DNA from: Butyrivibrio sp.
Lineage (GTDB): Bacteria; Bacillota; Clostridia; Lachnospirales; Lachnospiraceae
Assembly: GCA_017446685.1 (NCBI GenBank)
Contig: JAFSQI010000105.1
Coordinates: 1-64,000, forward strand
DNA length: 64,000 nt
Direction: 5' to 3'
Positions 2,936 through 31,757 of the stretch are shown here, piece after piece; position 1 is the stretch's first letter; each line of letters begins with the position of its first letter. The position numbers and the translations under genes were made by a program. The notes under the pieces are model-generated. The model searched no databases. It was not told the DNA's origin and worked only from the letters and a program-made list of their open reading frames with translations.

Positions 2936-3091
2936 AAGGAAAATGCTATCCGAAAAGCTGAGAAGAACTATGGTTGCTTCACCCCCATAAGCAATGGAAT
3001 CTAGAATCCAGTGAAAAAACTGCGCATTTACTGCCTAAAAAATCAAATTGAAAAATCCTTTTACAACTTTAAAGAAATACTTATCACTTAA
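2936..3091 (+). pseudogene. Transposase C-terminal remnant (IS1634/IS4-like)
   Basis: Plus-strand codons read ENAIRKAEKNYGCFTPISNG, one in-frame TAG, then KKLRIYCLKNQIEKSFYNFK and a stop. This matches the end of IS1634-type transposases, where a 'Y-N-K-x-x-V-E-K-x-F-x-N-x-K' block carries the last catalytic glutamate. Only about 50 codons remain. It overlaps the 3' end of the aminotransferase gene by a few bases and marks the left border of the glycan locus. Confidence 0.5.
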
Positions 3092-4409
3092 AACATCTCT
3101 TGATTATTTCTATCACAAAGTCTTGTTGTTTATCTGTCATTTTAATATCAGATGGTAGGCAAACACCTCTATTAAATATGTCTTTGCCAACATCAATACC
3201 CTCACACTCTATATAAGCATTACTCCTTGCTCGTCCATTTCCATCAACTGTTATAAATGCATTATTCCTATAGATTGGTTGCATATGCATCGGTTTCCAA
3301 ATAGGCCGTCCTTCACATCCATACGCAGATAAAACATCTAAAATTTCTTGTGGGCAACTCTTTCCTTTCTCAGACAGATATAAATAATCTTTTTCTCCTC
3401 TACATTGCCTCGTCATAGCATCTTCATCTATCATAAGGCAACTAAGCCAATAATTCGGTAATGAATTTATAGTATCATAAGGATTCATTTTTATTGGTAA
3501 TTCACTTAAACCAACCCTATATTTTTCATATATTTTTCTTTTTCTTTCAATATGCGAATCTAAATAAGGTATTTGCCCTCTTATAACTCCCGCGATCAGA
3601 TTACTCATACGATAATTATAACCAATTTCTTCATGTTGATACCACTGTGCAGCTTCTCTACTTTGTGTACTCCATTTTCTTACTTTATCCGCATCTTCTT
3701 TTGAATTAGTCAAAAACATTCCACCAGAAGAACCTGTTATAATTTTATTTCCATTAAAAGATATAGCATTATAATCTCCAATACCTCCAGTTTCCTTCCA
3801 CTGCCCCTTTATCATATATCTAGCACCAAGTGATTCTGCCGCATCTTCAACAATTAAAGCACCATGTTCATCTGCTATTTGTCTTATTTCTCTTACCTTT
3901 CCTGGCGTTCCATATAAATGTGCTAATACAATTAACTTAACTTCCGGATATATTTCAAATGCCTTTTGCAAAGCTTTAGGATCCATATTCCAAGTGTTTT
4001 CTTCACTATCTATAAATATAGCATCCCCGTTTTCATATGCTACAGGATTAACAGAAGCATCAAAAGTAACATCTGAGCAGAAAACTTTCTTTCCTGCCAA
4101 AGCCCCTTCATTAGGCCTGCACTGACCATAGATTTTTTCGGCAGCAAGCTTTATCGCCATATGCAATGCAGCTGTTCCGGAGCATAATCCAACAGCGTAC
4201 TTAACTCCAACATAATCAGCAATTGTTTTTTCAACAATAATAATATTTTCACCTTCGGTAGCTACCCACCCGGTCTCAAAAGCCTCATGAACATATTTTT
4301 CTTCATCTCCATGCATCGTAGCGCTGGAGAGCAATATTTTTCCTTCTGGCCTTTTAAGTCCATAATACTTAGGATTATCTTTAATTTGCTTTATCATTTT
4401 TTCATTCAT
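3084..4409 (-). CDS. legC: LegC-like PLP-dependent sugar aminotransferase (DegT/DnrJ/EryC1/StrS family)
   Basis: This 441-residue enzyme belongs to the DegT/DnrJ/EryC1/StrS fold. It would transfer an amino group from glutamate to a nucleotide-linked 4-keto-6-deoxy sugar. The family landmarks are visible: an N-terminal GWVATEGENI segment, CSGTAALHMA that binds PLP phosphate, VEDAAES with the PLP-nitrogen aspartate, and the Schiff-base lysine in SFNGNKIITGSSGG. The length is typical of the LegC subgroup. LegC converts the 4-keto product of LegB to a 4-amino sugar in legionaminic acid synthesis, and the LegB-like gene lies 46 bases upstream in the same orientation. AAAGGA precedes the ATG. It is the last gene of the large minus-strand glycan locus. 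Confidence 0.8.
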   Translation of the reverse strand: MNEKMIKQIKDNPKYYGLKRPEGKILLSSATMHGDEEKYVHEAFETGWVATEGENIIIVEKTIADYVGVKYAVGLCSGTAALHMAIKLAAEKIYGQCRPNEGALAGKKVFCSDVTFDASVNPVAYENGDAIFIDSEENTWNMDPKALQKAFEIYPEVKLIVLAHLYGTPGKVREIRQIADEHGALIVEDAAESLGARYMIKGQWKETGGIGDYNAISFNGNKIITGSSGGMFLTNSKEDADKVRKWSTQSREAAQWYQHEEIGYNYRMSNLIAGVIRGQIPYLDSHIERKRKIYEKYRVGLSELPIKMNPYDTINSLPNYWLSCLMIDEDAMTRQCRGEKDYLYLSEKGKSCPQEILDVLSAYGCEGRPIWKPMHMQPIYRNNAFITVDGNGRARSNAYIECEGIDVGKDIFNRGVCLPSDIKMTDKQQDFVIEIIKRCFK

Positions 4410-4455: not shown

Positions 4456-5661
4456 TTACATTTTTCCTTCCAAAAACTTACCTGTTTCTTTGTGTTTAAA
4501 CTCTGGAATCATTTCGCTAAATAAATTAATCAATTCAATACGATCCCAATTTCCTTTTTCTTTAATTTTTTCTATTTCACGCGTAAATTCATCTAATTTA
4601 TTTGAATCATAACACAATTCATTTTTTATAATTCCTATAGATTCAAATTTGTTCATATCTAAAAATTCTTTATCAGTATAAAACTCTTCAAAGTCCTTCT
4701 CGCCTGTAGTGTCACTGTTGAAAAAAAATACAGGATACTTATTTTGTTCTTTCAATTCTGTTACTCTCTCTCTTGCCTCTTGCTCAGTCTCACACAGCAC
4801 AGGTTCATATCCACGTTTTTCTAAATATTTTTCAGCAATACTACTAAAAGTAACGAGATTTAATTCTTCATCCAGCTTTGGAAAAAATATATCTCGGTTT
4901 TCACCTATCATACCTGATAACAGACACAATTCTCCTGCTTCCTTAGGAGTAACAAAATATCTTTTAACATCTTTAGGCGCAGCAATTGGTTGATTTTTTT
5001 CCATTCTCATATTAAATCCATATAAAAGACTTCCATCTGAAAAAGCCACATTAGCAAATCTAGCTGTCGAAACAGGTATCCTTTCGCTCCTACGATTTAA
5101 GAACATTTCCATAATTCTTTTTGATGCCCCCATCATATTAACAGGATTAGCTGCTTTGTCAGTAGAAACGCAAAAATACTTTTTTGTTCCCATTTTCTCA
5201 GCAATTTCCATGGTCAAATCTGTATTAAAAATATTTGTATCTATCATTCGCATAAGTGTATATGGATCTTTTTCTGATCTAACATGTTTTAAAGCAGATG
5301 TATTAAAAATATAATCATATCTACCAATTCTTTTTTTCTGAGAATTGATAAATGCCTTAAAAATTTCACTTCCACAATCTATGGAAAAAGTTGCAAATTC
5401 CCCACTTCCATATCCTATTGAAGATCTTATATCTCGCACCAGCTCAACCATATTATTTTCACTAATATCAACAACATGCAATGTTCTGGGATTTCTTTTA
5501 AATATTTCACGGCATATAGCTGAACCGATTGTACCTGCTCCACCTATAACAAGAATATTTGAATTATGAATTTCTTCTGTTATTTCATAATTGTTTTTTT
5601 CAATATCACTTTCAAAAAGAGCTTTGTTTCTTCCTACTAATTCTAAAATATTATCTTTCAA
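4456..5661 (-). CDS. legB: LegB-like nucleotide-sugar 4,6-dehydratase (SDR family)
   Basis: An extended short-chain dehydrogenase of 401 residues with an N-terminal extension, as in LegB/CapD-like dehydratases. The Rossmann motif GGAGTIGSA lies near residue 39 and an N-T-S-A-L-K-H-V-R-S catalytic-region motif is visible. STDKAANPVNMMGASKRIME follows, in which the usual tyrosine of YxxxK is replaced by methionine, as in inverting 4,6-dehydratases. In the legionaminic pathway LegB acts on GDP-GlcNAc. The start is a TTG at 5661 with AGGAAG six bases upstream, and no better start exists. The C-terminal ~100 residues are an additional subgroup-specific region. It lies between the ABC flippase and the aminotransferase. 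A UDP-sugar dehydratase role is the alternative. Confidence 0.75.
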   Translation of the reverse strand: MKDNILELVGRNKALFESDIEKNNYEITEEIHNSNILVIGGAGTIGSAICREIFKRNPRTLHVVDISENNMVELVRDIRSSIGYGSGEFATFSIDCGSEIFKAFINSQKKRIGRYDYIFNTSALKHVRSEKDPYTLMRMIDTNIFNTDLTMEIAEKMGTKKYFCVSTDKAANPVNMMGASKRIMEMFLNRRSERIPVSTARFANVAFSDGSLLYGFNMRMEKNQPIAAPKDVKRYFVTPKEAGELCLLSGMIGENRDIFFPKLDEELNLVTFSSIAEKYLEKRGYEPVLCETEQEARERVTELKEQNKYPVFFFNSDTTGEKDFEEFYTDKEFLDMNKFESIGIIKNELCYDSNKLDEFTREIEKIKEKGNWDRIELINLFSEMIPEFKHKETGKFLEGKM

Positions 5662-5699: not shown

Positions 5700-7505
5700 T
5701 TAGCCATTTTTATTCTGTGTTATTTCTCGTGCGACTCCGTTTTTTATTTCGTAAACCCTATCACACTTTCTTATGGTAGTTAACCTATGTGCCACAATAA
5801 CCAAAGTCATTTGTCCTTGAAGCGCCTCTATCGCTTCCATAACTGCATTTTCAGTTTCATTATCAAGTGCTGCAGTAGCTTCATCCATAACGAGAATTTG
5901 CGGTTTAGTGTATAACGCTCTGGCAATTGCTATTCTTTGGCGTTGTCCACCTGAAAACTTAATTCCGCGTTCGCCTACTACTGTATCTAAACCATCTGGT
6001 AATGTTTTAATAAACTCAGAAATTTGTGCCATTGCTAACGTTTCCCACACCTGACTATCAGATTCGCATTTGAGTCCAAACACAATATTGGCTCTAACAG
6101 TATCATCAATCAAAAAAACATTTTGTGGAACATAGCCAACAATATTTGCCCATATTTTTGGCATTAAAAAAACATCTAAATTATTTATTTTTACACTCCC
6201 ACCTTGTGGTCTTAACAGTCCCAATAAAACATCTGCCGTAGTTGTTTTTCCCGCTCCAGATGGCCCAATTAAACCAATAGATTCGCCTTTTTTGAAGCTA
6301 AAGCTCAAGCTATCAAGAACCGCACATTTTTGCCCCTCATATTTCCATCTAACATCAGATACCTCCACAACAAAATCAGAATCTACAATACTCTTCACCT
6401 TATCCATTGTTTGTTTCAAGTTTGTATCCCTTGATCTGTCATTTTCTATTTTAAAACTATCATATTTTTCAGTTTCTTTGATGTTTGTATAAATATTATG
6501 CTGCAGAGGTTTTCCAAACATACATGCATTTAAAGCATTAGAAATTTTACCTACAGATGGTAAGATTTTAAAAGCAGCCATCGCAAAAGCAGCAAGCTTC
6601 GGAATAAATGCATCAATTGAGTCATCACCAATCAGAATTCTAATACATACTATACCAATAGTTCCACTAATACACACTCCTTCTGTAACTCTATCTGGTA
6701 ATGCTCCAATAAAATTTCTGTTTCTATTACTAATTCTTGCTTTATCAGCTGCTTTTTCATATAGCAAAACAAAGGGTTCTCTTCTTTGCATTACTAATAT
6801 ATCTTTTATCCCTTGAATAGCCTGTGTTATGCTTTTATTTCGTTCTGTCAAAGCCTCCACATTAAGATAACCAGCCTTTTTTATAGCTGGCTTAAAAAAT
6901 ATCACCATACCGCCAAGCACAATTGCCATCAACGCAAGTACACCAATTGCTGTAAAAAAATCAGTAACTATCAGATATGCCCCAATGATGATTACTGTTA
7001 CACTTTCCATAATAAAAACAAATAAATAATTTAATAAATCAAAAAAGCCATTCGTATCATCTGAACAGCCTCTTAATACCTCTGAGCTATTTACATTTAA
7101 AAAATATGTATATGGCCTTGCCATATAAGACCTTAGCATCCTAATTGAAAGATTTTTTTGCCATTGAGTAGTGTAATTAAACCTCATATATGCAATATAA
7201 ATCAAAAAAAAATTTTTTATAACATATACCAAACTCAACAATAAACCAAAAGCAATAATAGGATAATTCATTCCATCCATGTTCAATAAATCCCATATTA
7301 CTCCAGTTATAGAACCATTTTTTAATTGCTCTGGTGTAATCACAGCTTGAATAAAAGGGACTATAGCGCTAACTCCTAATAACTCAAGTGCTGAACCAAT
7401 AATCATAAGAAAAAGAAGATAGGATGCTTGTAACTTTTCTTTTTTTGATAAAACATATCCTATTTCTGTAATTATTTCTTTAAAACCACAAATATTTTTA
7501 ATCAT
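5700..7505 (-). CDS. ABC transporter, PglK/MsbA-like lipid-linked oligosaccharide flippase
   Basis: A 601-residue fused permease-ATPase half transporter. The N-terminal ~330 residues hold about six hydrophobic segments. The C-terminal ATPase has Walker A GPSGAGKTT, a Q-loop in VGYVPQNVFLID, the signature FSGGQRQRIAIARAL, Walker B ILVMDEATAALD and the switch histidine in VIVAHRLTT. Close relatives sit in glycan loci and flip undecaprenyl-diphosphate-linked oligosaccharides, as PglK does in Campylobacter. AAGGAAATTTA precedes the ATG at 7505. Its place inside the nonulosonate gene set suggests that the oligosaccharide is assembled in the cytoplasm and flipped before transfer. No oligosaccharyltransferase gene is visible in the window, so the acceptor is unknown. 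Confidence 0.8.
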   Translation of the reverse strand: MIKNICGFKEIITEIGYVLSKKEKLQASYLLFLMIIGSALELLGVSAIVPFIQAVITPEQLKNGSITGVIWDLLNMDGMNYPIIAFGLLLSLVYVIKNFFLIYIAYMRFNYTTQWQKNLSIRMLRSYMARPYTYFLNVNSSEVLRGCSDDTNGFFDLLNYLFVFIMESVTVIIIGAYLIVTDFFTAIGVLALMAIVLGGMVIFFKPAIKKAGYLNVEALTERNKSITQAIQGIKDILVMQRREPFVLLYEKAADKARISNRNRNFIGALPDRVTEGVCISGTIGIVCIRILIGDDSIDAFIPKLAAFAMAAFKILPSVGKISNALNACMFGKPLQHNIYTNIKETEKYDSFKIENDRSRDTNLKQTMDKVKSIVDSDFVVEVSDVRWKYEGQKCAVLDSLSFSFKKGESIGLIGPSGAGKTTTADVLLGLLRPQGGSVKINNLDVFLMPKIWANIVGYVPQNVFLIDDTVRANIVFGLKCESDSQVWETLAMAQISEFIKTLPDGLDTVVGERGIKFSGGQRQRIAIARALYTKPQILVMDEATAALDNETENAVMEAIEALQGQMTLVIVAHRLTTIRKCDRVYEIKNGVAREITQNKNG

Positions 7506-7534: not shown

Positions 7535-8809
7535 CTATTTAATTAAACACTCTATCATATGAGTATCAAATACTGGTATTCCTAACTTTTCCTTTATAGC
7601 CTTACGTTCACCGTACGAATCATCCACAAATATAGATTTTTCTCCAGAAATATAATCAGCTTTGCTTTCATTATAATTAATATGTATCACCTCATCAAAA
7701 ATTTCTGTAAGTCTATATTTTTTTAGTTCTTCACTTAAATTTCCCAAATGTTTACTCAACAAAAAAATTTGTACTCCATCATTAATGCATTGGAAAACAA
7801 ATTTTAATATATCAACATTTATTACTCCATTATGAACCACAGTATCATCATAATCCAAATAAACTCTATCATATGTCAAAGATGTCTTGAAAACATTTCC
7901 CAAAGCTCTATCAAGAACAATATCGTAATCATTAACTACCAATTCATTTATTTGAATTCCATTAAAGCAATCTATTGTCATAAGTGGAAGGTTTGCGCCA
8001 ATATTTCTACTTATGGCTGAAGTTCCTGCTATCCTAGATGCAATTTCCAACAATTTTAGTTTTCCATTCTTGTCTTCCTTTAATTGAAAAAACCATCCAC
8101 CTTTTTGTTTGAGTTTAGCATTGATTTTTTGAGCGAATTCATAAAACTGGGGATTGTCACAAAAAAAAGCATTTACACTAATACCATTTTTTATTCTATT
8201 TCTGCTTCTTCCCTTACAATATATCAAATCACCATCATAATTAGTAAAACAATCTATAGTATATTCGTTTCCAGGTAAATACTCCATCACAACATACTTA
8301 TAAAAATCAACTTTTTCCAATTCTTTTTTATCTTCAATTAGTCGCGCCCCAACTGCTCCCTGCCCTTTATCCGGTTTAATAAAAACAGGCCAACAATTTA
8401 CTTCATCTATTGTATTATATACTTTAGGAACGTCCACAACGTATTGAAATTCTTCATATGTCTTTTTCTTTGATCTACACAATTCTGTAGTATATATATC
8501 TGCACTTATGAGCACTTCCTTAAACAAATGCCTATATCTACTAAAAACAGCAATTACTCCATCCATGGCTGGATAAATAAAATCAATATTATAATTCGAA
8601 ATAATTTTTTCAAACAACCTTATTTCTTCTTCATCACTATCATCACTTATAAAAGGTAATCCAAAAATAATTTCGTCATATACAAATCTACCATGATCAT
8701 TCTCGCATCCTCCTCCAATCAATTCATAATGCGTAGAATAACGCAATGATTTGTATATTTCAAGTCCGATTTCGGTACCACATGGGTAAACTAGTACTCT
8801 CTTCTTCAT
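7535..8809 (-). CDS. ATP-grasp ligase fused to a HAD-like phosphatase domain
   Basis: The N-terminal ~300 residues are an ATP-grasp enzyme (CarB-like). They include a Rossmann-like start KKRVLVYPCGTEIG, the lysine segment WPVFIKPDKGQGAVGARL, VVMEYLPGNEYTIDCF and the metal-binding LLEIASRIAGTSA. The C-terminal ~120 residues carry a HAD motif I DYDDTVVHNG, motif II LLSKH and a FVDDSYGERK motif. ATP-grasp enzymes of this kind join a carboxylate to an amine through an acyl phosphate. I chose the ATG at 8809 because GAGG sits seven bases upstream and the protein begins as relatives do; the earlier ATG at 8830 would overlap the upstream gene. It lies in a cassette with an AMP-ligase, carrier protein, acyltransferase and DUF4910 peptidase. 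Substrate unknown. Confidence 0.7.
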   Translation of the reverse strand: MKKRVLVYPCGTEIGLEIYKSLRYSTHYELIGGGCENDHGRFVYDEIIFGLPFISDDSDEEEIRLFEKIISNYNIDFIYPAMDGVIAVFSRYRHLFKEVLISADIYTTELCRSKKKTYEEFQYVVDVPKVYNTIDEVNCWPVFIKPDKGQGAVGARLIEDKKELEKVDFYKYVVMEYLPGNEYTIDCFTNYDGDLIYCKGRSRNRIKNGISVNAFFCDNPQFYEFAQKINAKLKQKGGWFFQLKEDKNGKLKLLEIASRIAGTSAISRNIGANLPLMTIDCFNGIQINELVVNDYDIVLDRALGNVFKTSLTYDRVYLDYDDTVVHNGVINVDILKFVFQCINDGVQIFLLSKHLGNLSEELKKYRLTEIFDEVIHINYNESKADYISGEKSIFVDDSYGERKAIKEKLGIPVFDTHMIECLIK

Positions 8810-8816
8810 GATATCC

Positions 8817-10103
8817 TCAAACTGTCTCAATCAATTTTTCTTCCATTAATCTCTTAACAATCGGAATCAAATCATTTACTGATTCTTCTATTTTATTAGA
8901 TATATCAAACAAATCATTTGTCCCATCAGCATATGCGATAAAATTCGTCATTGCTCTTACACCATCATATGACCCCTTTTTACTTATAGCTACGTGTAAT
9001 CCTCTTTTTCCAAGTTGAGGTTCACAAAAAACTTTAATTCTATACTTATAATTCCATTCAAGTCCATCTATTACATTTCTCATTACATCATAACTGCCCT
9101 GAAACCCTTTTGGACTAATATACTCCATATTATCAGCAGACGTATGATATTCAGGATACTCACAAAACTTAGATCGGCAAAAACATGCTACAGGTAAATC
9201 AACCCCAGGAGCATTGTATTGTCTCTCATCAGATCCTCTCTTTAAAAAAGTATACGTTGAATAATTATCATTTGTATAAAAATGCAAGACATTTTTCAAA
9301 ATCTTATCTGAAAGAGTATTCGCATACCTAGTTTCCACTATTGAATAATCATTATCATCACCCACACATGAAAGATTAAATCCTGCAACCATATTCTTTT
9401 TCAAATAATGTAGGTTATTATTCTGACTTAGAAACGATATAGCACCAATAGTTTCTGGCACAAATACAAATCTATAATTATATCTTCTCTTTTCTAATAA
9501 ACTTATATACTTAATAAGTTCACAAGCCAATGCCGGTCCTGAACATTCATTATTAGCCATTGAAGGATGACAAATATATGTTGAAAAAAACACCTCTTCC
9601 GAATTACATTCTGTCGATGAAATAAAAACCTCTCCATAATTTAACTCTCCCTGGACAAATTCACTGTCAATAAACATATGATAACTACCTTCAGGAAGTG
9701 AATTCAATTGATTTTCAGACATGCAAAAACCAACTCTATCATTGTAATATGAAGTGACATAAGGAATTACATCCGGCTGATCTTTTTGTGTAAAAACATA
9801 TTCTTTCAACTCATCCAAAGATACCCACTTATCAATGGGCTGTGAGTACCCCATTACATGAAGATTATGATTATTAAAATCAATAATATGTTTTCCACTT
9901 TCATTTTCAATATAGCCATTACGTATTACCCATTCCATAGGAACTGTCCAATCAAAAACTTTGGTTCCACATGGAACACTTTTCATCTCAAGTTTTACAT
10001 TGTTTTCTCTTAACTTTTGTGAAATGGCAAAGAGAGTTTTTCTTACTCCTTCTCCTGTAATACTCCTGCAAATCGGAAAAATAGTATTTGCAAATTCGTA
10101 CAT
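8817..10103 (-). CDS. DUF4910 (DUF2172) zinc aminopeptidase-like protein
   Basis: A protein of about 428 residues that begins MYEFANTIFPICRSITGEG, the hallmark start of the DUF4910/DUF2172 family. The family has an M28-like zinc peptidase fold. Likely metal or catalytic residues are in ICHPSMANNECSG, VPETIGA, the RGSDERQYN stretch and EYHTSADN near the end. The longer frame starting at 10208 would add 35 unconserved residues and overlap the neighbouring gene. The ATG at 10103 has GAAGGAA upstream and is preferred. Members commonly sit in surface-polysaccharide loci beside amino-sugar genes, and their substrate is unknown. Here it is flanked by an acyltransferase and an ATP-grasp enzyme, so hydrolysis of an amide on a sugar intermediate is a plausible inference. 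Confidence 0.7.
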   Translation of the reverse strand: MYEFANTIFPICRSITGEGVRKTLFAISQKLRENNVKLEMKSVPCGTKVFDWTVPMEWVIRNGYIENESGKHIIDFNNHNLHVMGYSQPIDKWVSLDELKEYVFTQKDQPDVIPYVTSYYNDRVGFCMSENQLNSLPEGSYHMFIDSEFVQGELNYGEVFISSTECNSEEVFFSTYICHPSMANNECSGPALACELIKYISLLEKRRYNYRFVFVPETIGAISFLSQNNNLHYLKKNMVAGFNLSCVGDDNDYSIVETRYANTLSDKILKNVLHFYTNDNYSTYTFLKRGSDERQYNAPGVDLPVACFCRSKFCEYPEYHTSADNMEYISPKGFQGSYDVMRNVIDGLEWNYKYRIKVFCEPQLGKRGLHVAISKKGSYDGVRAMTNFIAYADGTNDLFDISNKIEESVNDLIPIVKRLMEEKLIETV

Positions 10104-10125
10104 TCTGTTTCCTTCAATTATTTTT

Positions 10126-10935
10126 TTATCCACAATGATCGCTCCAAATTTTCTCTCTTTCAATTTTAAAATCAAATAAATTCCTACATTGGTTATATAA
10201 AATATCATTTTGAATAAATGGATAACAATCAGCTAAGTTCATCTTATAACATTGTATCCCATTTATTACATACTGATGTGAAACACCATTTTTCTCTAAA
10301 ATTTGCCCTATTCTATTGAATTTTTCAACACTACCATATTCAAGATATTTCGCAGGATATTCTATTGTTATAGTACTAGATGTACCATCCGCTTTAACAT
10401 ATGTTCCAGTAAACTCCTTGTGAAATCTGTAAGGGACTTTTTCTTTAGTCTCAACATAATGAACAAATGTCATTCCTCTTTGATAGTCAGTTCCTAAAAG
10501 AATCTGAATAGCATTATTCTTATACATCCAAGCAAACGGAGAATCCTGTCCAAAAGAATTTAGGTTTTGAATACTACATAATTCATCCTTGTACTTTCCC
10601 CATATAGCATATGAATGCATTGGATTCCACGTTCTCTTAAAATCAGACCTTTCTAAAGCTATATTTCCTAACGCACCAGTAGTGCATTTTGTGTTTTTAT
10701 AATCATAAAAACCTTTATTACTAAAGTCAAAGTTAAAAGTAGGTACTAGCAAAGTTCCTTCACTACCGATGCAATCAATAAATGAATCCAATATATTATT
10801 TGCATCAAATGTTCCTTCTTTATTTTTGGCAATATATGCAAGGGCTAATATATCTGATGATAGATTTATAATATCACCTTTTTTTATTTCAAATTCTCGA
10901 GCAATATTATTGATAGAAATATACTTGTCACTCAT
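10126..10935 (-). CDS. AAC(3)-fold N-acyltransferase (antibiotic_NAT family)
   Basis: A 269-residue member of the family that includes aminoglycoside 3-N-acetyltransferases. Family landmarks are GDIINLSSD near residue 18, GTLLVPTFN, the NPMHSYAIWGK block, and LLGTDYQRGMTFVHYVE with the conserved histidine and glutamate. The gene overlaps the preceding carrier-protein gene by 8 bases, which points to translational coupling and to a working partnership. Resistance is unlikely given the location. In glycan loci such proteins can acylate an amino sugar, and a neighbouring acyl carrier protein suggests the donor is acyl-ACP rather than acetyl-CoA. It could replace the LegH acetyltransferase missing from this nonulosonate set. 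That is inference. Confidence 0.75.
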   Translation of the reverse strand: MSDKYISINNIAREFEIKKGDIINLSSDILALAYIAKNKEGTFDANNILDSFIDCIGSEGTLLVPTFNFDFSNKGFYDYKNTKCTTGALGNIALERSDFKRTWNPMHSYAIWGKYKDELCSIQNLNSFGQDSPFAWMYKNNAIQILLGTDYQRGMTFVHYVETKEKVPYRFHKEFTGTYVKADGTSSTITIEYPAKYLEYGSVEKFNRIGQILEKNGVSHQYVINGIQCYKMNLADCYPFIQNDILYNQCRNLFDFKIEREKIWSDHCG

Positions 10936-11167
10936 ATTTTTTCCTATTTATGTAATCTGTAATTTTAGATGGTGTCTCAAAATTTGAAGGCACTAACTCT
11001 AATGGATGTATTTCAATACCATACTCCCCTTCTATTATTGGCAAAATTTTATCAAACAAGGAAATTGAATCAATTATTCCTTCTCCAAAAAGATCTGTAT
11101 TAGCAGTTATGTCATCATATTTAAGCACATCCTTCAATTTTAATATTATTTCACTTACTTTAATCAT
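10928..11167 (-). CDS. Stand-alone acyl carrier protein
   Basis: A 79-residue phosphopantetheine carrier. The attachment serine is Ser34 in EGIIDSISLFD, the usual D-S-I/L context at the start of helix II. The protein is acidic and ends in a short lysine-rich tail. GGAAGAGG precedes the ATG. It lies between the AMP-ligase gene (18-base gap) and the AAC(3)-fold acyltransferase gene (8-base overlap). The expected sequence of events is that the ligase loads an acyl group on this carrier and the transferase takes it off to an amine. It is not the housekeeping AcpP, which has the DSLD motif and lies with fab genes. Confidence 0.85.
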   Translation of the reverse strand: MIKVSEIILKLKDVLKYDDITANTDLFGEGIIDSISLFDKILPIIEGEYGIEIHPLELVPSNFETPSKITDYINRKKYE

Positions 11168-11185
11168 TTTTCCTCTTCCTTGGAA

Positions 11186-12712
11186 TTATCCTATATACTC
11201 ACTATATAACTTAACTCTATCAATTTTTCCATTCGCATTATATGGCATCTTAGCAATGTTCTCAATTCTATCTGGAAGCATATATGCAGGTAAATACTTT
11301 TCTCGAAGCGTTCCCAGCACCCTACCACTGTCATTTCTTCCTTGATAAAGCAATACAATATGATCTTTTTTGGAATCATACAATGCTACACATACATCTA
11401 TATCTGGAATACAGTTTGCAGCATGCTCTATTTCACCCAATTCTATTCTATACCCACTATGCTTTATTTGGGAATCAACCCTTCCTATATACTCATACTC
11501 TCCAAACTCATTTATTTTTACTAAATCGCCTGTTTTATAAACCTTCTCTGAAAACTTGTTATTCAAAGGATTTTGAACAAACACTTCATCTGTTTTTTCT
11601 TTCAAACAATAATATCCATTACCTAAAAATGGTCCCTTAAAATATAATTCCCCTATCTCTCCTTGTGTTATTACATCATTATTTTCATTCAAAGCAAACG
11701 CATTCATTGAATTAGCACAAACTCCAATTGGCAAAATATCCTCATCCTTAAATTCTCTGTCAACTATATAATAAAGTGCTATATCAGTTATCTCAGTTGG
11801 TCCAAATAAATTAGCATACATGGCATTAGGAATATGTTCTCGCCATCTGTTCAATACTTTATTAGGCATTACTTCACCAGCAAACAATATAGTTTTAAGC
11901 GTTGTAACATCAACATAATCTAATGCTTTCCATTTTGCCACAATTCCCATTGCAGATGGAACCCAATATATTGTATTTATCTTACTCTTATTTAAATACT
12001 CAAGAAGTTGAATTGGAAAAGAAAAAAGTTTTTTGGGAATCAGGACTAATGTTGCACCATTTTTTAATGTAGAAAAAATATCTAGAACAGACATACTAAA
12101 ATAAAATGGGGTTTGACTCCCAAAGATAGTTTCATGATTAAAATTAAAAGTTTCTTGAAGCCAATCTGCATATGCTATAAGTGCACCGTGAGAAATAACA
12201 CTTCCTTTAGGAATTCCAGTTGAACCAGAAGTATATAATATATACGCAGGATCCGTAGAAATGACAGATTTCCTCGCAAAAGCTATTGCATCATCAATTT
12301 CTTTTTCGGGATAAACAATTTCATTATTAATATATATAGTCAAAATAGCATGTTTTTCTTGAATAATTCTTGACTTCTCATCATTTTTTAAACAAATCAT
12401 AGCTATAGGTTGTAAATTATTAATGATTGCATCAAGTCTTTCATTAGGCATATCCCTATCAATACAAACATAATAATTTCCGCTGTAAAGAACACCTAAC
12501 ATAGCTATCATACAGTCTATTGATTTATCAATAAAAATAATAATTGGAGAATTAGTTACTTTCCCTACAGTTTTAATAATTTGATATCCTAAAGTTTTAG
12601 ACTTTTTCTCTGTTTCTTTATAAGTAATCTCCTTATCCTCTTCTTTGCAAAAAATATGACTTGGATATTTTTTTACACTATTATCCAAATATTCCAACAC
12701 ATTTTTTTTCAT
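11186..12712 (-). CDS. AMP-forming acyl/aminoacyl ligase (stand-alone adenylation domain)
   Basis: A 508-residue DltA/NRPS-type adenylation enzyme. Core motifs are present: A3 ILYTSGSTGIPKGS at about 158-171, A5 NLFGPTEITD, A7 YKTGDLV, A8 GRVDSQIKHSGYRIELGE and the catalytic lysine in the A10 motif NANGKIDR. At the A4 site the usual F-D-x-S-V reads F-S-M-S-V (residues 205-209). The aspartate that normally holds the alpha-amino group is therefore serine at position 206. That suggests the substrate is not a standard alpha-amino acid. There is no fused carrier domain; the separate carrier protein follows. The ATG shares an ATGA overlap with the upstream cytidylyltransferase gene. Confidence 0.8.
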   Translation of the reverse strand: MKKNVLEYLDNSVKKYPSHIFCKEEDKEITYKETEKKSKTLGYQIIKTVGKVTNSPIIIFIDKSIDCMIAMLGVLYSGNYYVCIDRDMPNERLDAIINNLQPIAMICLKNDEKSRIIQEKHAILTIYINNEIVYPEKEIDDAIAFARKSVISTDPAYILYTSGSTGIPKGSVISHGALIAYADWLQETFNFNHETIFGSQTPFYFSMSVLDIFSTLKNGATLVLIPKKLFSFPIQLLEYLNKSKINTIYWVPSAMGIVAKWKALDYVDVTTLKTILFAGEVMPNKVLNRWREHIPNAMYANLFGPTEITDIALYYIVDREFKDEDILPIGVCANSMNAFALNENNDVITQGEIGELYFKGPFLGNGYYCLKEKTDEVFVQNPLNNKFSEKVYKTGDLVKINEFGEYEYIGRVDSQIKHSGYRIELGEIEHAANCIPDIDVCVALYDSKKDHIVLLYQGRNDSGRVLGTLREKYLPAYMLPDRIENIAKMPYNANGKIDRVKLYSEYIG

Positions 12713-13410
12713 AAAACATGCCTCTTCTTATTTATTAAATACTCAGCAAATTCAAAATCGCTAATACTATCTATATCTACAGAATCGCTACTATTCATAA
12801 TATATGGCACCGTATTATCACAAAAATAGGTTCTTTTATTTTTTAGCAACTCATAATTCAATATATAAATTGCTCCATTGCATACATAATATTTCTGAGC
12901 AAACTGTCTATTATTTGTTAAATTAATATCCATACCAAAGTTGCAAGCCTGAATTTTTCCATCTACAGATTTTGACAAGTACCAACTTGGCGGAATTTCT
13001 GCCTCCTTAACAGATACCAACGTAGTAGCATTTGTTTTTCGAAAAAGCATCTCTGCTTCACAAATATGTTTTGAAGTACGAAATGGTGCTGTCGGTAACA
13101 GCACCATAAATGAATCTATATTCTCATTATCTTGTTTCTTTAGGTATTCAACCGCATGCAAATATACATCTGGTGCTACAGCAGTATCTGAAGCTAAATA
13201 GTCTGGTCTTATAAATGGTACCTCAGCACCATACTCTCTTGCTACATCAGCAATCTCTAAATCATCTGTTGTAACAACAACCCTACTTATACATTTTGAC
13301 TCTAAAGCAGCACGAATAGTATACGCTATAAGAGGCATTTCTCCTAGCAATTTTATATTTTTACGTGGAACCCCTTTAGATCCACCTCGAGCAGGTATCA
13401 ACGCAATCAT
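12709..13410 (-). CDS. legF: CMP-nonulosonate cytidylyltransferase (LegF/NeuA-like)
   Basis: A 233-residue cytidylyltransferase that would activate a nonulosonic acid with CTP. The N-terminal nucleotide-binding motif IPARGGSKGVPRKN, the VVTTDDLEIADVA segment and LLPTAPFR are classic for NeuA/PseF/LegF. It lies 3 bases after the NeuB-like synthase gene and overlaps the AMP-ligase gene by 4 bases, so it is co-translated with both. Legionaminate is the most likely substrate because LegB, LegC and PtmE relatives are in the same locus. Sialic or pseudaminic acid cannot be excluded from sequence alone. Confidence 0.85.
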   Translation of the reverse strand: MIALIPARGGSKGVPRKNIKLLGEMPLIAYTIRAALESKCISRVVVTTDDLEIADVAREYGAEVPFIRPDYLASDTAVAPDVYLHAVEYLKKQDNENIDSFMVLLPTAPFRTSKHICEAEMLFRKTNATTLVSVKEAEIPPSWYLSKSVDGKIQACNFGMDINLTNNRQFAQKYYVCNGAIYILNYELLKNKRTYFCDNTVPYIMNSSDSVDIDSISDFEFAEYLINKKRHVL

Positions 13411-13413
13411 ACC

Positions 13414-14454
13414 TTAAAAATCCTCCTGAGTTATAATTCTATCAAACTCAATATTTCTCTTTGCAACTCTTCCTACAACATATTCGTAATACTTAGGTGG
13501 AATTCCTGTTCCAGGACGTTTATAAGCCAAATCATCTTCAGTTATAACTGTTCCAGCTTTTATTGGACGAGCTGCTACTATACTTCTTTGAAATGCCTCA
13601 CGTCTTTCCTGATTTTCATTCACAACTTTTTCATACTTTCCAAGCATTTTATAGCCCTTTGCTGCAGCATCACACATTATTTTGAGTTCTTCAGGATTAG
13701 CAGATATCTTATGATCCCATCCAATCATATTTTTATCCATCGTAAAGTGCTTTTCAATAATACATACACCCTTCGCAATTGACATTATTGGTGCAACAAC
13801 TCCAATCGTATGGTCTGAATATCCAACAGGCAATCCAAAACATGTACGAAGCATATCAATATTATTGAGATTTACCTGATTATCCTCAGGAGGATAAATT
13901 GATACACAATGTAACAGTATGATATTCTCGCAACCATTCTCTCTAAGTGTCTCTACCGCAAGAGCAACATCGCTCATTGGACATAATCCATTACTTATTA
14001 CTATAGGTTTTCCTTTCTTTGCAACATATTTCAAAAAAGGAACATTATCTAGATCCATCGATGCGATTTTAATAAATGGAACATTCAATTCATCAACTAA
14101 CATATCAACTTCCCATTTTGTAAATGGTGTTGAAGCAAACTCAATACCAATTTCGTGACAATAAGCTTGAAGCATTTTATGTTCTTCTATTCCAATATGA
14201 TATTTATCAACTATTTCTTCTAATGTATAATCCGTACGGTTTCGATAATCATCTGTTAGAAAATAATTATCTTCATAAACTTTTCTAGAAAAAATTGAAT
14301 CTTTTGCCCATGATTGAAACTTAACACAATCTGCTCCACACTTTTTAGCTGTTTCAATCATTTTTTTTGCCAATTCCATATCACCATTATGATTTGCTCC
14401 TATTTCAGCAATCATGTAAGGCTTCTTATATTCTGCAATCTCATTAAATTTCAT
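13414..14454 (-). CDS. legI: Nonulosonic acid synthase (LegI/NeuB-like)
   Basis: A 346-residue PEP-dependent synthase that condenses PEP with a six-carbon amino sugar to give a nine-carbon acid. The NeuB barrel is marked by IAEIGANHNGDMELAKKMI, VKFQSW, FASTPF, HCVSIYPP, GYSDHTIG and IEKHFT. The C-terminal ~60 residues form an SAF (antifreeze-like) domain, RSIVAARPIKAGTVITEDDL, that closes the active site of the partner subunit. Length and domain order are normal. The start codon overlaps the stop of the upstream glycosyltransferase gene by ATGA. The 2-epimerase that would supply the hexose substrate (LegG/NeuC) is not in this window. Confidence 0.88.
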   Translation of the reverse strand: MKFNEIAEYKKPYMIAEIGANHNGDMELAKKMIETAKKCGADCVKFQSWAKDSIFSRKVYEDNYFLTDDYRNRTDYTLEEIVDKYHIGIEEHKMLQAYCHEIGIEFASTPFTKWEVDMLVDELNVPFIKIASMDLDNVPFLKYVAKKGKPIVISNGLCPMSDVALAVETLRENGCENIILLHCVSIYPPEDNQVNLNNIDMLRTCFGLPVGYSDHTIGVVAPIMSIAKGVCIIEKHFTMDKNMIGWDHKISANPEELKIMCDAAAKGYKMLGKYEKVVNENQERREAFQRSIVAARPIKAGTVITEDDLAYKRPGTGIPPKYYEYVVGRVAKRNIEFDRIITQEDF

Positions 14455-15317
14455 TTAGCAACCTCCACTTGTATTAAATCCCACCAATAATGCCTGTTTT
14501 TTTCATACTCTGCATTATTATAATTTATATATAATTCATCTATATCTAAATTGCTAATTTTTTTTAATAAATCCTCAAATAGCATATCATATTTGGCCAG
14601 CATTTCATAATGCTTTTTTTTAATTGTATATTCATATAATAAGTTTTCTCTAGAAAAAGATCTAACCCCAGCTATATTTCCACCATATATGCGATATTTT
14701 GTGCATGCATCATTAATTTTTATTCCATATCCACTATTTAATATAATACGTGAATATAAATACCAATCAAAAATATTACTGCAACATTCATTCAAGGAAT
14801 TTAAAAAATTATCATCTAATTTTTTTAGATTAATCGCAGTATTAGACATTCCCAGATAATTATACTGAGCAACATTATACAAGCTATCTGTTTTTTCAGG
14901 CAGTTTAGGCATCGCATCAGAACCATCCATATATACAATTTTATTATAAAAAAATGATGCATCCGAATATCGATTATATGCATCAATAATTTTTCCCGCT
15001 CTATCACTTGAAAACAAATCATCACAGTCTCCAATAATAAGCAAATCCCCGCCAAACTTTATAGCGTCATTTAATAATTGAATTCTATTCAATACCGGAT
15101 TATCTTTATTTTTTGCCTCCACAATATAATATGCATTTTCCACGCAAGCCATCATTTTCTTTATTTCATTACTATCTATTCCTTCATTAATTATTAAAAT
15201 AAAAAAATCCTTATTTGTCTGACATTGCAACGATACAATGTTTTCTTTGAAATATTGAATAGCACTTGGATATATAACAGTCCCCCAAATGTATTTTTTT
15301 CCCTTATTCGAACCCAT
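14451..15317 (-). CDS. GT2-like glycosyltransferase
   Basis: A 288-residue putative glycosyltransferase with a GT-A fold. After the N-terminal strand it has an internal LLIIGDCDDLFSSDRA block that serves as the DXD metal site, and a conserved FDWYLYSRI segment in the acceptor half. No membrane segments are seen. It overlaps the PtmE-like gene by 14 bases and the NeuB-like gene by 4, so it belongs to the nonulosonate operon. Sugar donor and acceptor cannot be told from sequence. Confidence 0.6.
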   Translation of the reverse strand: MGSNKGKKYIWGTVIYPSAIQYFKENIVSLQCQTNKDFFILIINEGIDSNEIKKMMACVENAYYIVEAKNKDNPVLNRIQLLNDAIKFGGDLLIIGDCDDLFSSDRAGKIIDAYNRYSDASFFYNKIVYMDGSDAMPKLPEKTDSLYNVAQYNYLGMSNTAINLKKLDDNFLNSLNECCSNIFDWYLYSRIILNSGYGIKINDACTKYRIYGGNIAGVRSFSRENLLYEYTIKKKHYEMLAKYDMLFEDLLKKISNLDIDELYINYNNAEYEKNRHYWWDLIQVEVAK

Positions 15318-16383
15318 TATTAATTCGCTCTTCCATTTTTTTCATTTCACCAAATTCTCCCATATCCAAAAAAGCTTGTTCACTTATAGGATACATTCCA
15401 ACATTCATACCCATACTCAACATTTTTTCTGCAAGATCTGTCATGTGGAACATAATATCTCTTGGTATATATTTAATAATATCCGGATTAATCACATACA
15501 TTCCTGTATTTACCAAATATGACAATTTAGGCTTTTCTTCAATTGAATTAATTTTTCCTTGCTCAGAAGTATGTAACACCCCATATGGTATTACTGTATT
15601 TTTTAAAGAAGACACTACTGTCATATCATTTTGCTTTTCGATATGGTACTTCATTATTTTGTCATAATCAGCTTCAATCAAAATATCACAATTTGTAACA
15701 ATTATAGGAGTTTCAAATTTTTTATGTATAAGTCTTATGCTACCAGCCGTCCCTAACGGCTTATCTTCCTCCACATATCTAACATTATAACTTGGCTGAA
15801 TATCCGCAAAATAAGAACGAATCATTTCTTTTTTATAATTAAGAGTTATCCAAAAATCACGCGCTCCATATTTATAAAATTTATTAATTATACGCTCAAT
15901 TATCGGTATATCTCCTATCGGAATTAGTGGTTTTGGAAGTATTTTTGTATAAGGGTACAATCTTGTTCCTTTACCACCAGCCATAATAATCACAGGAATA
16001 TCATTCAAACTTTTTTCAATTTCAGACTCATCATTTTCTTCAAACGCTTTATTATTAAAAATAACATCTATTATCCTGCAATCATTATCAACAATTGGAA
16101 CAGCTTTTATTCGATTTTTCAACATATACTCATTTGCAATCATTCTATCACTTTCATGCAAATATCTAGGGTTTTGTCCCATAATGTCAATCACTTCAGT
16201 ATCTAAATTACCTGTATTAATAAGCCATCTTCTAACATCACCATCAGTCAACGCACCTATAAGTTTTTCATCATCATTAATAATAAACAGTATTCCTACA
16301 CCACTTATATCCATCATTTTTAGTGCATCTACAATATCTATTTTATCTTGAGCAATATATTTTTTTATCTTTTCTTTTATCAT
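15304..16383 (-). CDS. ptmE: PtmE-like nucleotidyltransferase with N-terminal CBS pair
   Basis: A 359-residue protein. Residues 1-120 form two CBS modules (GVGILFIINDDEKLIGALTD and KAVPIVDNDCRIIDV blocks), and residues 125-359 form a sugar-1-phosphate nucleotidyltransferase. The latter starts PVIIMAGGKGTRLYPYTK and has an LPKPLIPIGD motif and TNCDILIEADY. This domain order is that of Campylobacter PtmE, which makes the GDP-linked glucosamine precursor for legionaminic acid. Together with the LegB-, LegC-, LegI- and LegF-like genes it supports the legionaminate assignment over sialate or pseudaminate. The CBS pair may sense nucleotides. The exact nucleotide used is inferred from the homologue. 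Confidence 0.75.
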   Translation of the reverse strand: MIKEKIKKYIAQDKIDIVDALKMMDISGVGILFIINDDEKLIGALTDGDVRRWLINTGNLDTEVIDIMGQNPRYLHESDRMIANEYMLKNRIKAVPIVDNDCRIIDVIFNNKAFEENDESEIEKSLNDIPVIIMAGGKGTRLYPYTKILPKPLIPIGDIPIIERIINKFYKYGARDFWITLNYKKEMIRSYFADIQPSYNVRYVEEDKPLGTAGSIRLIHKKFETPIIVTNCDILIEADYDKIMKYHIEKQNDMTVVSSLKNTVIPYGVLHTSEQGKINSIEEKPKLSYLVNTGMYVINPDIIKYIPRDIMFHMTDLAEKMLSMGMNVGMYPISEQAFLDMGEFGEMKKMEERINNGFE

Positions 16384-16406: not shown

Positions 16407-17921
16407 TTATAAAATGTCATTTAACAATTCTTTAAGTTCACTAATTGTTTTTTTACTAAGTTCAGATGTTTTGTCCACTTCCCACAATGAAGTTCTATTA
16501 AAGAAAACTGCTTTTTTTTGTATTGCATAATAGTATCGTTTTAAATCATACATATTAATTGTTACACCATCTAATATCTTTTCAATCACTTGTTTTCCCT
16601 GACATGCATCTTGTATTTCAAACAATCCCGGCATTCCCTTTAAACAAAAACCATCTCCAAAAGTTATAGCTGGTTTTCCGTAAAAAGGTGCTTCAATTAA
16701 ACATGTCCCTGTTTGATTTGCTACGGCTAACGCATTTTCCATTAATTCACCGCTTGTCACATCTGATTTAATATATACTATGTTTCCCAGCCTTTCAAGC
16801 TCTTTCCAAAATAGTTTTTCCCTATAAGGCTGTAAATAATATTCTTTAACATATATTTTTATATCATAATCCTTCAAAACATATGACAATAGCTGAATTG
16901 CATTATATTGTTCGCCAAACACTCCCGATTGAGGTTTTGTAGTAGCTTCAGGCCACAACTGTAGTGGATAAAAAATATACTTATCACTTTTATTTGGATA
17001 TTGTGCTTTTTTATCGTACTCTTTCAAGGATACAAGATCATACTTATAATATAATGATAATCTTTTTAAATCTCTAATTTCCTTATAACCATATTTATTA
17101 TTTTTATACCTATCTATTGATTTATACTTAATAAGTGCACTCATTAAAAACTTAAGATTATGAAAAGAAGCTACAAAATATGGATGATTTCCTTTAGGAG
17201 CATTGAATTTTTCGACCTTGACTTGCTTCGTTATTTCTTTGCGCTTCGCATCACTTAATGTAGCTTCGCTAACTTTTTTAATACTGTTTTCAAAATATTT
17301 TTTTACTACACCTTCCAATTCATAAGATGTATCAACTTGTTCACATAACCTTTCATATTCATCTTTTACGGAACATCCAACTGTATCTATCGATTCACCA
17401 TATATATGCATTCCACTTTGCGATCCCGGTTCATGTATTCCCACAGGTGAAAGTATACATATTTTTTTTTGTAAAATTCTAGCAACAGCATATGCCGAAT
17501 ACATTATTGGCCAATGCGGCGTGTCATCAAACATAATAAATTCAATATTGTTCTGCAAAAAAAATTCATTCCAATATTTCAAATAATATAAATAATTTCT
17601 CTCACATTCATCAATTGAAGCAATAGGATAAGCAAATCTATAAGAATCTAAAGTAATAAAAGTAGATCTATACTCTAATGCTTTTTCCAAAAAAACTTTT
17701 CCCAATGGTCTTAATTTAGATTCCGCTTCGATATCAATCTTTCCGCGCATCATTTCTTCAATTTCCACATACTTAATATGATTAGAATCCATCAAATCAT
17801 CTTTTTCTTCATATATTCCCGGCAAATATGTAATATATACATTTTCGAAATTCTTATCTTTTACTAAATAATCTCCAATTTCATATTTATAACTTGCTAT
17901 ATTTAACAATAACGCATTCAT
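16407..17921 (-). CDS. Capsule-synthesis-like GT-B glycosyltransferase, candidate nonulosonate transferase
   Basis: A protein of about 504 residues with no membrane segment. The second half has a YIFYPLQLWPEATTKP stretch, then KIYVKEYY and a TGTCLIEAPFYGKPAITFGD block. These resemble the KDO/capsule glycosyltransferase family (KpsS/Capsule_synth). Those enzymes use CMP-activated acids, so transfer of the CMP-nonulosonate made by the neighbouring genes is a reasonable guess. A TTG at 17930 gives a longer frame, but GGGAG sits at the right distance from the ATG at 17921. The first half is not recognisable to me. Confidence 0.5.
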   Translation of the reverse strand: MNALLLNIASYKYEIGDYLVKDKNFENVYITYLPGIYEEKDDLMDSNHIKYVEIEEMMRGKIDIEAESKLRPLGKVFLEKALEYRSTFITLDSYRFAYPIASIDECERNYLYYLKYWNEFFLQNNIEFIMFDDTPHWPIMYSAYAVARILQKKICILSPVGIHEPGSQSGMHIYGESIDTVGCSVKDEYERLCEQVDTSYELEGVVKKYFENSIKKVSEATLSDAKRKEITKQVKVEKFNAPKGNHPYFVASFHNLKFLMSALIKYKSIDRYKNNKYGYKEIRDLKRLSLYYKYDLVSLKEYDKKAQYPNKSDKYIFYPLQLWPEATTKPQSGVFGEQYNAIQLLSYVLKDYDIKIYVKEYYLQPYREKLFWKELERLGNIVYIKSDVTSGELMENALAVANQTGTCLIEAPFYGKPAITFGDGFCLKGMPGLFEIQDACQGKQVIEKILDGVTINMYDLKRYYYAIQKKAVFFNRTSLWEVDKTSELSKKTISELKELLNDIL

Positions 17922-18034
17922 AATACTCAAACTCCCAAAATAAGTATTAGTACATTGTTTCTCAAAGATATAACCATATATTTGAAATTCAATCCACTAC
18001 TTGCACTATGTATCTCATACATAGTTCCATACTA

Positions 18035-18991
18035 TCATTGATGAGCATTGGTTATTTCACAATTTTCATCAATATAAACCCAATTATCCTCATATATATC
18101 AATTGGTTGATCATCTCGCTGCATCCATTTTGCAGGTGCAACTACAATCTTCTCCATATTGTCAGATAAATGTTGAGCCCACCAACTAAAAGTTGAATTA
18201 TGGATAATAAAATGTCTACACGCAGACATAAGTCTAATTTTTTCTCCAATAGTATTTCCATCATTTTCATAATACACTTCATCTTGAATAATTAGATTTT
18301 TTTTACACCACTCTATACTATCTGAAAAAATAAAAAAAACTGGATTAATCACTTTTGATTTAATATATTCAATACCTTTATAAAAATATGAAATATCATA
18401 CGAATATAAATCAGATGTTCTAGAATCTTCTATATCTTGTCTTTTTATTGTCACGCACACAGAATTACAACTATGTATTTTTTTATATAATTCTTCATTT
18501 TCTTCAGACATCTTATCTTTCATAACTAACTCAGCTCGTAGTTTATTATCTATCTCTTTAAAGTACTCTCCACTTTCAAAATATCCTCTTATATATATAT
18601 GTCTCCTTGGTCTAAATTTATATTGAAAATATGCTGCATCAAAGTAATAAATCCCCCAAAAAGGCAATAACTTTGCACACCACAAATAAAACTTATATGT
18701 TCTTTTATCAAAATCCTTTAATCTGAAGATGCCTCTTACGAATCTTAATAATTCAAAAATTAGATATCCAAAATCTATATTGTTTTTATATGAATAATTA
18801 ACAACATTAAAACTATGTAATAAATCATCATTTCCAATTCTTTTTTGTTGATAACGTCTAATAAGTATATAATTAATTATTAGCTCAGCATCATACATTT
18901 CTTGTATTTTTCTTGCAAAGGCATATTGAAAAAATTGATTTCCACATCCACCACTTATATATAAATGTATTTTTGTTTTCTTATTTTTCAA
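18035..18991 (-). CDS. Alpha-1,2-fucosyltransferase-like GT11, divergent
   Basis: A 318-residue GT11 family protein. The N-terminal GDP-binding loop reads SGGCGNQFFQYAFARK, and the C-terminal block is IIHNSTFSWWAQHL, both diagnostic. The central motif, usually H-x-R-R-x-D, reads TIKRQD here, so the first histidine is lost; this may mark altered donor binding or reduced activity. It is followed directly by a second, more typical GT11 gene, suggesting tandem duplication and divergence. GT11 enzymes add fucose (or a related deoxy sugar) in alpha-1,2 linkage. Confidence 0.75.
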   Translation of the reverse strand: MKNKKTKIHLYISGGCGNQFFQYAFARKIQEMYDAELIINYILIRRYQQKRIGNDDLLHSFNVVNYSYKNNIDFGYLIFELLRFVRGIFRLKDFDKRTYKFYLWCAKLLPFWGIYYFDAAYFQYKFRPRRHIYIRGYFESGEYFKEIDNKLRAELVMKDKMSEENEELYKKIHSCNSVCVTIKRQDIEDSRTSDLYSYDISYFYKGIEYIKSKVINPVFFIFSDSIEWCKKNLIIQDEVYYENDGNTIGEKIRLMSACRHFIIHNSTFSWWAQHLSDNMEKIVVAPAKWMQRDDQPIDIYEDNWVYIDENCEITNAHQ

Positions 18992-19003
18992 TTCAATCTC
19001 CCA

Positions 19004-31745: not shown

Positions 31746-31757
31746 AATTTCCCCCTA

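Follow-up and report, generated by a model that had tools for sequence, protein, structure and literature searches.

The nearest described counterparts of the genes analysed here come from nonulosonate and flagellin loci. Our subject is a run of five adjacent genes in a 64,000-nucleotide stretch of Butyrivibrio sp. DNA (assembly GCA_017446685.1, contig JAFSQI010000105.1), hereafter the window, encoding an AMP-forming ligase (AL), a stand-alone acyl carrier protein (ACP), an AAC(3)-fold acyltransferase (AAC3), a DUF4910 protein and an ATP-grasp/HAD fusion (Table 1). One counterpart is the Cj1295 system of Campylobacter jejuni, in which we take Cj1295 to be a DUF4910/DUF2172 protein, Cj1296/1297 to be AAC(3)-like, Cj1299 an ACP and Cj1307/1308 a ligase/ACP pair. 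Cj1295, termed aminopeptidase-like, is required for the 5-N-(2,3-di-O-methylglyceroyl) pseudaminic acid on flagellin, and Hitchen et al. proposed that it takes off the 5-acetamido group (PMC3068675). The same locus holds cj1302, an fkbH-domain gene; strain 12664, in which cj1302 (fkbH) is a pseudogene, and strain 12661, in which cj1301 is missing, both have flagella without dimethylglyceric sugars (PMC7099621). A second counterpart is the Clostridium acetobutylicum neighbourhood CA_C2187-CA_C2199, which a 2014 table lists with NeuB, SpsF, ATP-grasp, DUF4910, aminosugar N-acetyltransferases and ACP; there, Das et al. solved CA_C2195 and proposed aminosugar transacylation or, less readily, deacylation (PMC4000134). 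Two further papers place an ACP and an AMP-dependent synthetase among the pse genes of Aeromonas group II polar flagellin islands (PMC7874193), and ACPs and fatty-acid CoA ligases in enterobacterial flagellin islands (PMC4875605).

The window locus resembles the C. jejuni system in having a DUF4910-type protein, with its motifs, in a nonulosonate/flagellin locus, with AAC3 and ACP alongside and with NeuB and a CMP-nonulosonate synthetase. It uses an AMP ligase where C. jejuni has an FkbH (glyceryl-ACP) loader, which makes it a variant rather than the same subtype; it also has no methyltransferase match among the scanned genes, and its NeuB scores closer to the Neu/Leg model than to PseI. With CA_C2187-CA_C2199 it shares NeuB, ATP-grasp, DUF4910 and ACP in one neighbourhood, for which a role in aminosugar modification has already been proposed. 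In that table, however, the extra acyl enzyme is an N-acetyltransferase plus HAD protein (which we read as FkbH-like), no AMP ligase is listed, and Maf is present; we found no Maf (PF01973) in the window's own genome, so flagellin may or may not be the acceptor. The Aeromonas islands differ in having LuxE, LuxC and a 3-oxoacyl-ACP reductase, and the extract of PMC7874193 names no DUF4910 protein or aminopeptidase. Our search of the open-access literature found no description of a ligase-ACP-AAC3-DUF4910 unit, nothing on O-antigen acyl-carrier systems and no useful match for Treponema denticola. Both the parts of the unit and the proposal that DUF4910 serves in acyl modification have already been published, and the view, in a first reading of the DNA made without database searches (the sequence-only reading), that no described pathway holds the full set was too strong given the partial precedents in PMC4000134, PMC3068675 and PMC7874193.

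With moderate confidence, we read AL, ACP, AAC3 and DUF4910 as a module that swaps N-acyl groups by way of a carrier, its target being a nonulosonic acid (probably of the legionaminic type) or the nucleotide-sugar precursor of that acid. The reactions, the acid that is loaded and its position on the sugar are our inference: AL would adenylate a carboxylic acid and then thioesterify it to ACP. The DUF4910 protein would free a sugar amine, most simply by taking off the N-acetyl group at the later N5 position, and AAC3 would move the acyl group from ACP to the freed amine. The LegF-like enzyme encoded next to AL would then activate the sugar for the surface or flagellar glycan of the locus.

To follow the unit across genomes, we used 33 DUF4910 loci other than the window's own: 32 places scoring at least 115 bits, drawn from partly overlapping searches of 295, 398 and 397 genomes, plus L032, which came from an AAC3 scan (loci are numbered with the prefix L). 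Each fetched stretch is at most 20 kb long; some stop at contig ends, which cut L101 and L102. Genes were called with home-built profiles trained partly on L032-L040 and L069, so that these loci are detected by construction; those numbered L078 and above lie outside the training set. By these profiles, AAC3 occurs in 20 of the 33 loci (19 of 32 leaving out L032), and ACP in all 20 loci with AAC3 versus two of the 13 without. The 20 AAC3 loci carry either an AMP ligase (ten) or an FkbH-type loader (eight), never both; L078 and L086 have neither, and no ligase or FkbH rose above threshold in the 13 loci lacking AAC3. Six of the ligases are DltA-like (L032, L033, L080, L081, L084, L098) and four are acyl-CoA-ligase-like (L040, L083, L090 and L087, the last a weak profile match at 64 bits whose gene type was confirmed). 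Among the FkbH calls, Pfam FkbH_N exceeds its cut-off in L036 (33.0 of 27) and falls just below it in L034 (25.0); the other six rest on a home-built profile made from these two loci. AAC3 and DUF4910 are adjacent in 13 of the 20 loci, fused in two (L034 and L087, with Pfam run on L034 only) and apart in five.

The order AL-ACP-AAC3-DUF4910 is repeated in L032 (UBA1748), the closest relative, whose AAC3 is 62% identical, and the closest named relative at this locus is a member of the Lachnospiraceae. CMP-nonulosonate synthetase, NeuB, DUF4910, AAC3, AL and ACP form an unbroken run in L084, and L098 has the same run with one pyruvyl-transferase-like gene in between. A scan of genome contigs with AAC3 alone gave one locus. 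As a control, we took nine NeuB loci that span at least 18 kb and lack DUF4910 (L073, L074, L103-L109): none has AAC3, a ligase or FkbH, and ACP occurs in three, all of one genus. The control omits four of the 13 NeuB stretches without DUF4910, which are short (L110-L113, 3-9 kb) and hold an ACP in L111 and AAC3, ligase or FkbH in none; a third NeuB place in genome G222 and a weak one in G223 also lie outside it. Ligase, ACP, AAC3 and DUF4910 are thus a recurring conserved four-gene unit.

We compared the trees of AAC3 and DUF4910 with loader type in 19 loci; we dropped L037 and L038 as near copies of L036, L039 was omitted, and L087 was labelled as having no loader despite its acyl-CoA-ligase-type gene (64 bits). 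The AAC3 tree needs six changes of loader label against a shuffled mean of 10.1, with none of 1000 shuffles as low, whereas the DUF4910 tree needs ten against 10.2 (598/1000). With the three loader states only, the counts are four versus 7.3 for AAC3 (5/1000) and eight versus 7.4 for DUF4910 (900/1000). Mean identity is 0.387 in same-label and 0.314 in other pairs for AAC3, 0.562 and 0.572 for DUF4910. Some AAC3 branches are long, and the shuffles ignore genome relatedness, but both loader trees share the same loci. Tests on the presence of NeuB or AAC3 used 30 DUF4910 rows scoring at least 300 bits and 19 AAC3 rows, again with L037 and L038 dropped; the AAC3 tree does not track NeuB (six changes versus 6.3; 531/1000), and the DUF4910 tree needs six changes for AAC3 presence versus 9.2 (18/1000). 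AAC3 follows loader type and DUF4910 does not. Because only the AAC3 tree tracks the loader, we read AAC3 as fitted to the acyl-ACP, and DUF4910 as fitted to a partner that stays the same, probably the sugar.

The DUF4910 motifs HPSxxNNE, PETIG and YHTS, read from relatives, are present in the window protein. NNE is found in 32 of 34 DUF4910 rows, the window counted, and the two rows without the pattern are a split gene (L095) and a truncated one (L101). We had considered a window-specific loss of a zinc-binding Asp (HPSMCNDN in the crystal structure versus HPSMANNE here), and rejected it because NNE is the norm among these loci. In CA_C2195 (PDB 3k9t), the catalytic Asp and Glu of M28 peptidases are replaced by Ser and Pro (PMC4000134), and the window protein aligned to 3k9t also has Ser and Pro at these sites. 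Trimming, which the sequence-only reading had suggested as a possible last step, is therefore unlikely as the work of DUF4910 acting as an ordinary peptidase. The split gene (L095:9613-10676) runs over two frames beside NeuB, LegF and PseG homologues and is probably a broken gene or a sequencing error.

In an alignment with solved adenylation domains and relatives, AL has Ser, as does L032, where six other DltA-like relatives (L033, L039, L080, L081, L084, L098) have Asp. We take this Asp (Asp235 in GrsA) to anchor the alpha-amino group. Because Ser replaces it, the acid loaded by AL is probably not a free alpha-amino acid; by the same alignment, a hydroxy-, keto- or N-blocked acid is the probable substrate. 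A glycerate-like acid would fit, since FkbH, the alternative loader, delivers glycerate. The DS motif of the ACP would carry the phosphopantetheine serine. AAC3 keeps the T..H..E motif, as do all ten aligned sequences, its own counted. An AAC(3) aminoglycoside resistance enzyme was rejected as its identity (best NCBIfam AAC(3) score 33.5 bits, with 270 needed); a search of plasmids with AAC3 gave 70 records, each below 60% identity.

Several observations weigh against the acyl-swap module. Deacylation by DUF4910 would need unusual chemistry, because the M28 catalytic residues are replaced. In thirteen of the 33 DUF4910 loci the fetched DNA, which in some cases stops at a contig end, is without AAC3, and DUF4910 may therefore work with other partners too. 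When only ligase and FkbH labels are compared, the AAC3 signal weakens to three changes versus 5.1 (47/1000; DUF4910, five versus 5.1, 627/1000), and the DUF4910 tree leans towards following NeuB only marginally (seven versus 9.6; 52/1000). Further counterpoints concern L039, L032, L033 and the distribution of NeuB, and bear on two alternatives.

In the first, which we consider unlikely, AAC3 stands in for LegH: it would acylate the free C4 amine made by LegB and LegC (the later N7) with the acid on ACP, and DUF4910 would have a different or later role. L039, which holds AL, ACP and AAC3 without DUF4910, speaks for this arrangement. So does the absence of a hexapeptide LegH-like gene among the Pfam-scanned genes of the locus, the only TIGR03570 matches in the genome being weak and on other contigs; L107, with similar PtmE-like, GT2-like and NeuB/LegF genes, does have a PglD/hexapeptide protein. 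However, the assembly could miss LegH since the genome is 88.75% complete, DUF4910 would go unexplained though in 15 of 20 loci it adjoins AAC3 or is fused with it, and the sole genetically studied DUF4910-type gene concerns N5.

In the second, distinctly unlikely in our judgement, the acyl group goes not to the nonulosonate but to a different amino sugar within that glycan. L032 carries the four genes without NeuB in 17 kb, the one NeuB found in its genome being on another contig, and the quartet in L033 likewise has no NeuB in its fetched locus. The co-occurrence with neuB-type genes that the sequence-only reading had named as a check holds for ligase-type relatives, six of ten of which have NeuB in the locus (versus one of eight FkbH-type loci and neither of the two others), but not for AAC3 loci as a whole: NeuB is no commoner there (7 of 20) than in DUF4910 loci without AAC3 (5 of 13), and is thus no marker of AAC3 loci as such. 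Against another acceptor stand the ligase-type count, the overlap of the window cassette with the CMP-nonulosonate synthetase gene and the C. jejuni precedent, which acts on a nonulosonate.

It is very improbable that all five genes form one pathway whose acyl transfer is followed by an essential ligation carried out by the ATP-grasp/HAD protein. The tight spacing in the window favours it, as do ATP-grasp proteins in other nonulosonate loci (CA_C2189, SO_3265, L084, L099 and a weak one in L102), but the window's ATP-grasp/HAD subtype occurs in none of the 33 DUF4910 loci, so that of the five-gene cassette proposed from the DNA alone four genes stand as the conserved unit and the fifth was rejected as a core member. 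Its sole near-full-length relative in 295 genomes (G257, 37%) lies in a fetched 20 kb with none of the four cassette genes by home-built profiles, and the ATP-grasp/HAD_2 fusion encoded in L084 is a different one and lies on the opposite strand. In the window and L068, Ala or Ser takes the place of the Asn in the ATP-grasp motif EINPR, which places ligase activity in doubt. The HAD part shows the motifs LDYDDT, LSKH, K and VDDS by eye and has no Pfam match; alone, its best match among solved structures (E 0.2) is not convincing. The gene is probably only a neighbour of the conserved unit, and its product may prepare the acid, tailor the sugar or be unrelated.

Hardly credible, finally, is a Dlt-like D-alanylation system plus a peptidase that trims the added residue: as in DltA/DltC a ligase would charge a stand-alone carrier, the DltA model is the next-best NCBIfam match of AL and the DltC model the best of ACP, and an MBOAT gene at 30252-31745 has DltB as its sole NCBIfam match, but all three miss the curated cut-offs (AL 296 of 560, ACP 27.9 of 68, MBOAT 160 of 375 bits), AL has Ser for the amino-anchoring Asp, DUF4910 lacks the M28 catalytic pair, the transferase partner is a soluble AAC(3)-fold protein, and the MBOAT gene lies ~17.5 kb away.

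Table 1 Cassette genes and surrounding nonulosonate genes in the window.
Feature	Coordinates	Strand	Basis
AL, DltA-like AMP-forming ligase, proposed acid loader	11186..12712	-	PF00501 AMP-binding 1.5e-59
ACP, stand-alone carrier, 79 aa, DS motif	10928..11167	-	PP-binding 9.2e-05, 23.1 bits (cut-off 20.8)
AAC3, AAC(3)-fold acyltransferase, proposed transfer from ACP to sugar amine	10126..10935	-	Antibiotic_NAT 5.8e-30
DUF4910/DUF2172/HTH_47 protein, proposed sugar N-deacylase or acyl-exchange partner	8817..10133	-	DUF4910 4.2e-89
ATP-grasp/HAD fusion, local neighbour outside the conserved unit	7535..8809	-	ATPgrasp_Ter 1.7e-20
LegF/PseF-family CMP-nonulosonate synthetase-like	12709..13410	-	Homology, below equivalog cut-off; best model PseF
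NeuB-type nonulosonate synthase with SAF domain	13414..14454	-	Pfam and NCBIfam
PtmE/LegX-like, CBS and nucleotidyltransferase	15304..16383	-	Domain matches; PtmE name is our reading
LegB-like sugar dehydratase	4456..5661	-	Polysacc_synt_2; LegB name is our reading
LegC-like aminotransferase	3084..4409	-	TIGR04181, 268 bits (cut-off 420)
PglK-like ABC flippase/exporter	5700..7505	-	281 bits (cut-off 1000)

The five open reading frames were confirmed, all on the minus strand and tightly packed within 7535-12712. The sequence-only reading was right about their adjacency, about the families, with which Pfam agrees outside the HAD part, and about their place between the LegF-like gene and the flippase gene, both homologues below equivalog cut-offs. 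AL overlaps the LegF-like gene by 4 bp, and a gap of 18 bp separates AL from ACP. ACP and AAC3 overlap by 8 bp, as do AAC3 and DUF4910 provided that DUF4910 starts at GTG 10133; the ATP-grasp/HAD gene follows after 7 bp if it starts at ATG 8809, and 29 bp separate that gene from the ABC gene. These are the likely starts, each with a plausible ribosome-binding sequence; the mechanical reading frames run to 10208 and 8830, respectively. An Rfam scan over the window gave zero matches.

The gene order is LegC-like, LegB-like, PglK-like ABC exporter, the five genes, LegF-like, NeuB, GT2-like, PtmE-like and then many glycosyltransferases, with asparagine synthase, MBOAT and SGNH-like proteins also encoded past the PtmE-like gene; upstream lie superoxide dismutase and flagellar genes (FliW, a flagellin-domain protein, two FlgK-type, FlgN). 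By these family matches, it is a nonulosonate/glycan locus adjoining a flagellar block. Homologues of LegB, LegC, LegX/PtmE, LegI and LegF of the legionaminic acid pathway are all present, by homology below equivalog cut-offs. Neither LegG (the hydrolysing 2-epimerase) nor LegH was found in the window, in this incomplete genome; elsewhere in the genome are one weak TIGR03568 match (contig C53, 90 of 236 bits) and PseG-like proteins on contig C54. That contig (L074, L075) carries a second nonulosonate locus, of the pseudaminic type, with NeuB, a PseG above cut-off (190 of 153.6 bits), a second PseG-like protein, a LegF-like protein, a PseH-like acetyltransferase (below cut-off) and a close LegC paralogue (6e-202).

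Several neighbouring genes were also recorded. The GT2-like gene between PtmE and NeuB (14451-15317) has no family match of its own; its relatives adjoin NeuB in L105-L107, where the L107 copy has a GT2 Pfam match and is preceded by a PIG-L de-N-acetylase gene. It may be part of nonulosonate synthesis. In these same three loci, all of one genus, ACP and a MaoC dehydratase, and in L107 also a reductase, lie among the nonulosonate genes, as if an acyl chain were built there, and they have their AAC3/DUF4910/FkbH set at another place on the contig. L080 has a 706-amino-acid reading frame (7976-10096, plus strand) in which NeuB and radical SAM/SPASM-like domains are joined, and the gene directly after NeuB in L034 is of the radical SAM/SPASM type; the nonulosonate may undergo a radical step. 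The 507-amino-acid protein at 16407-17930 has zero Pfam or NCBIfam matches, and among the fetched loci it has one distant relative (L079, 26%). It could be a CMP-nonulosonate transferase, given that the search for Maf was negative. Two GT11 and one GT10 (FucT_N) fucosyltransferases are encoded at 18035-19876 and 27033-28061, with a further GT11-like gene outside the window near the contig end (L077), and the glycan may be fucosylated in a Lewis-like manner. At 30252-33239, the MBOAT gene (DltB-like, below cut-off) and one for a protein that we read as SGNH-like (no family match) suggest extracellular O-acylation of the same glycan.

Beyond the acyl-swap module in the window, we tentatively entertain a broader possibility. 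DUF4910 and AAC3 may be a general amino-sugar acyl-swap core with interchangeable loaders (DltA-like, acyl-CoA-ligase-like or FkbH). On this view, DUF4910, with its M28 fold, would represent a novel type of sugar N-deacylase or acyl-exchange enzyme, which removes an N-acetyl group that is always the same, and AAC3 would co-evolve with the loader; the window's loader may then have moved from amino acids to a different acid, and the product would be an N-acyl nonulosonate not described before. Pfam still lists DUF4910 as a domain of unknown function, with one member genetically tied to the N-acyl group of a flagellar sugar. A fixed DUF4910-AAC3 core with exchangeable loaders, in which AAC3 alone tracks the loader, would make the old hypothesis testable in vitro, and unusual N-acyl groups on bacterial glycans would become predictable from gene content.

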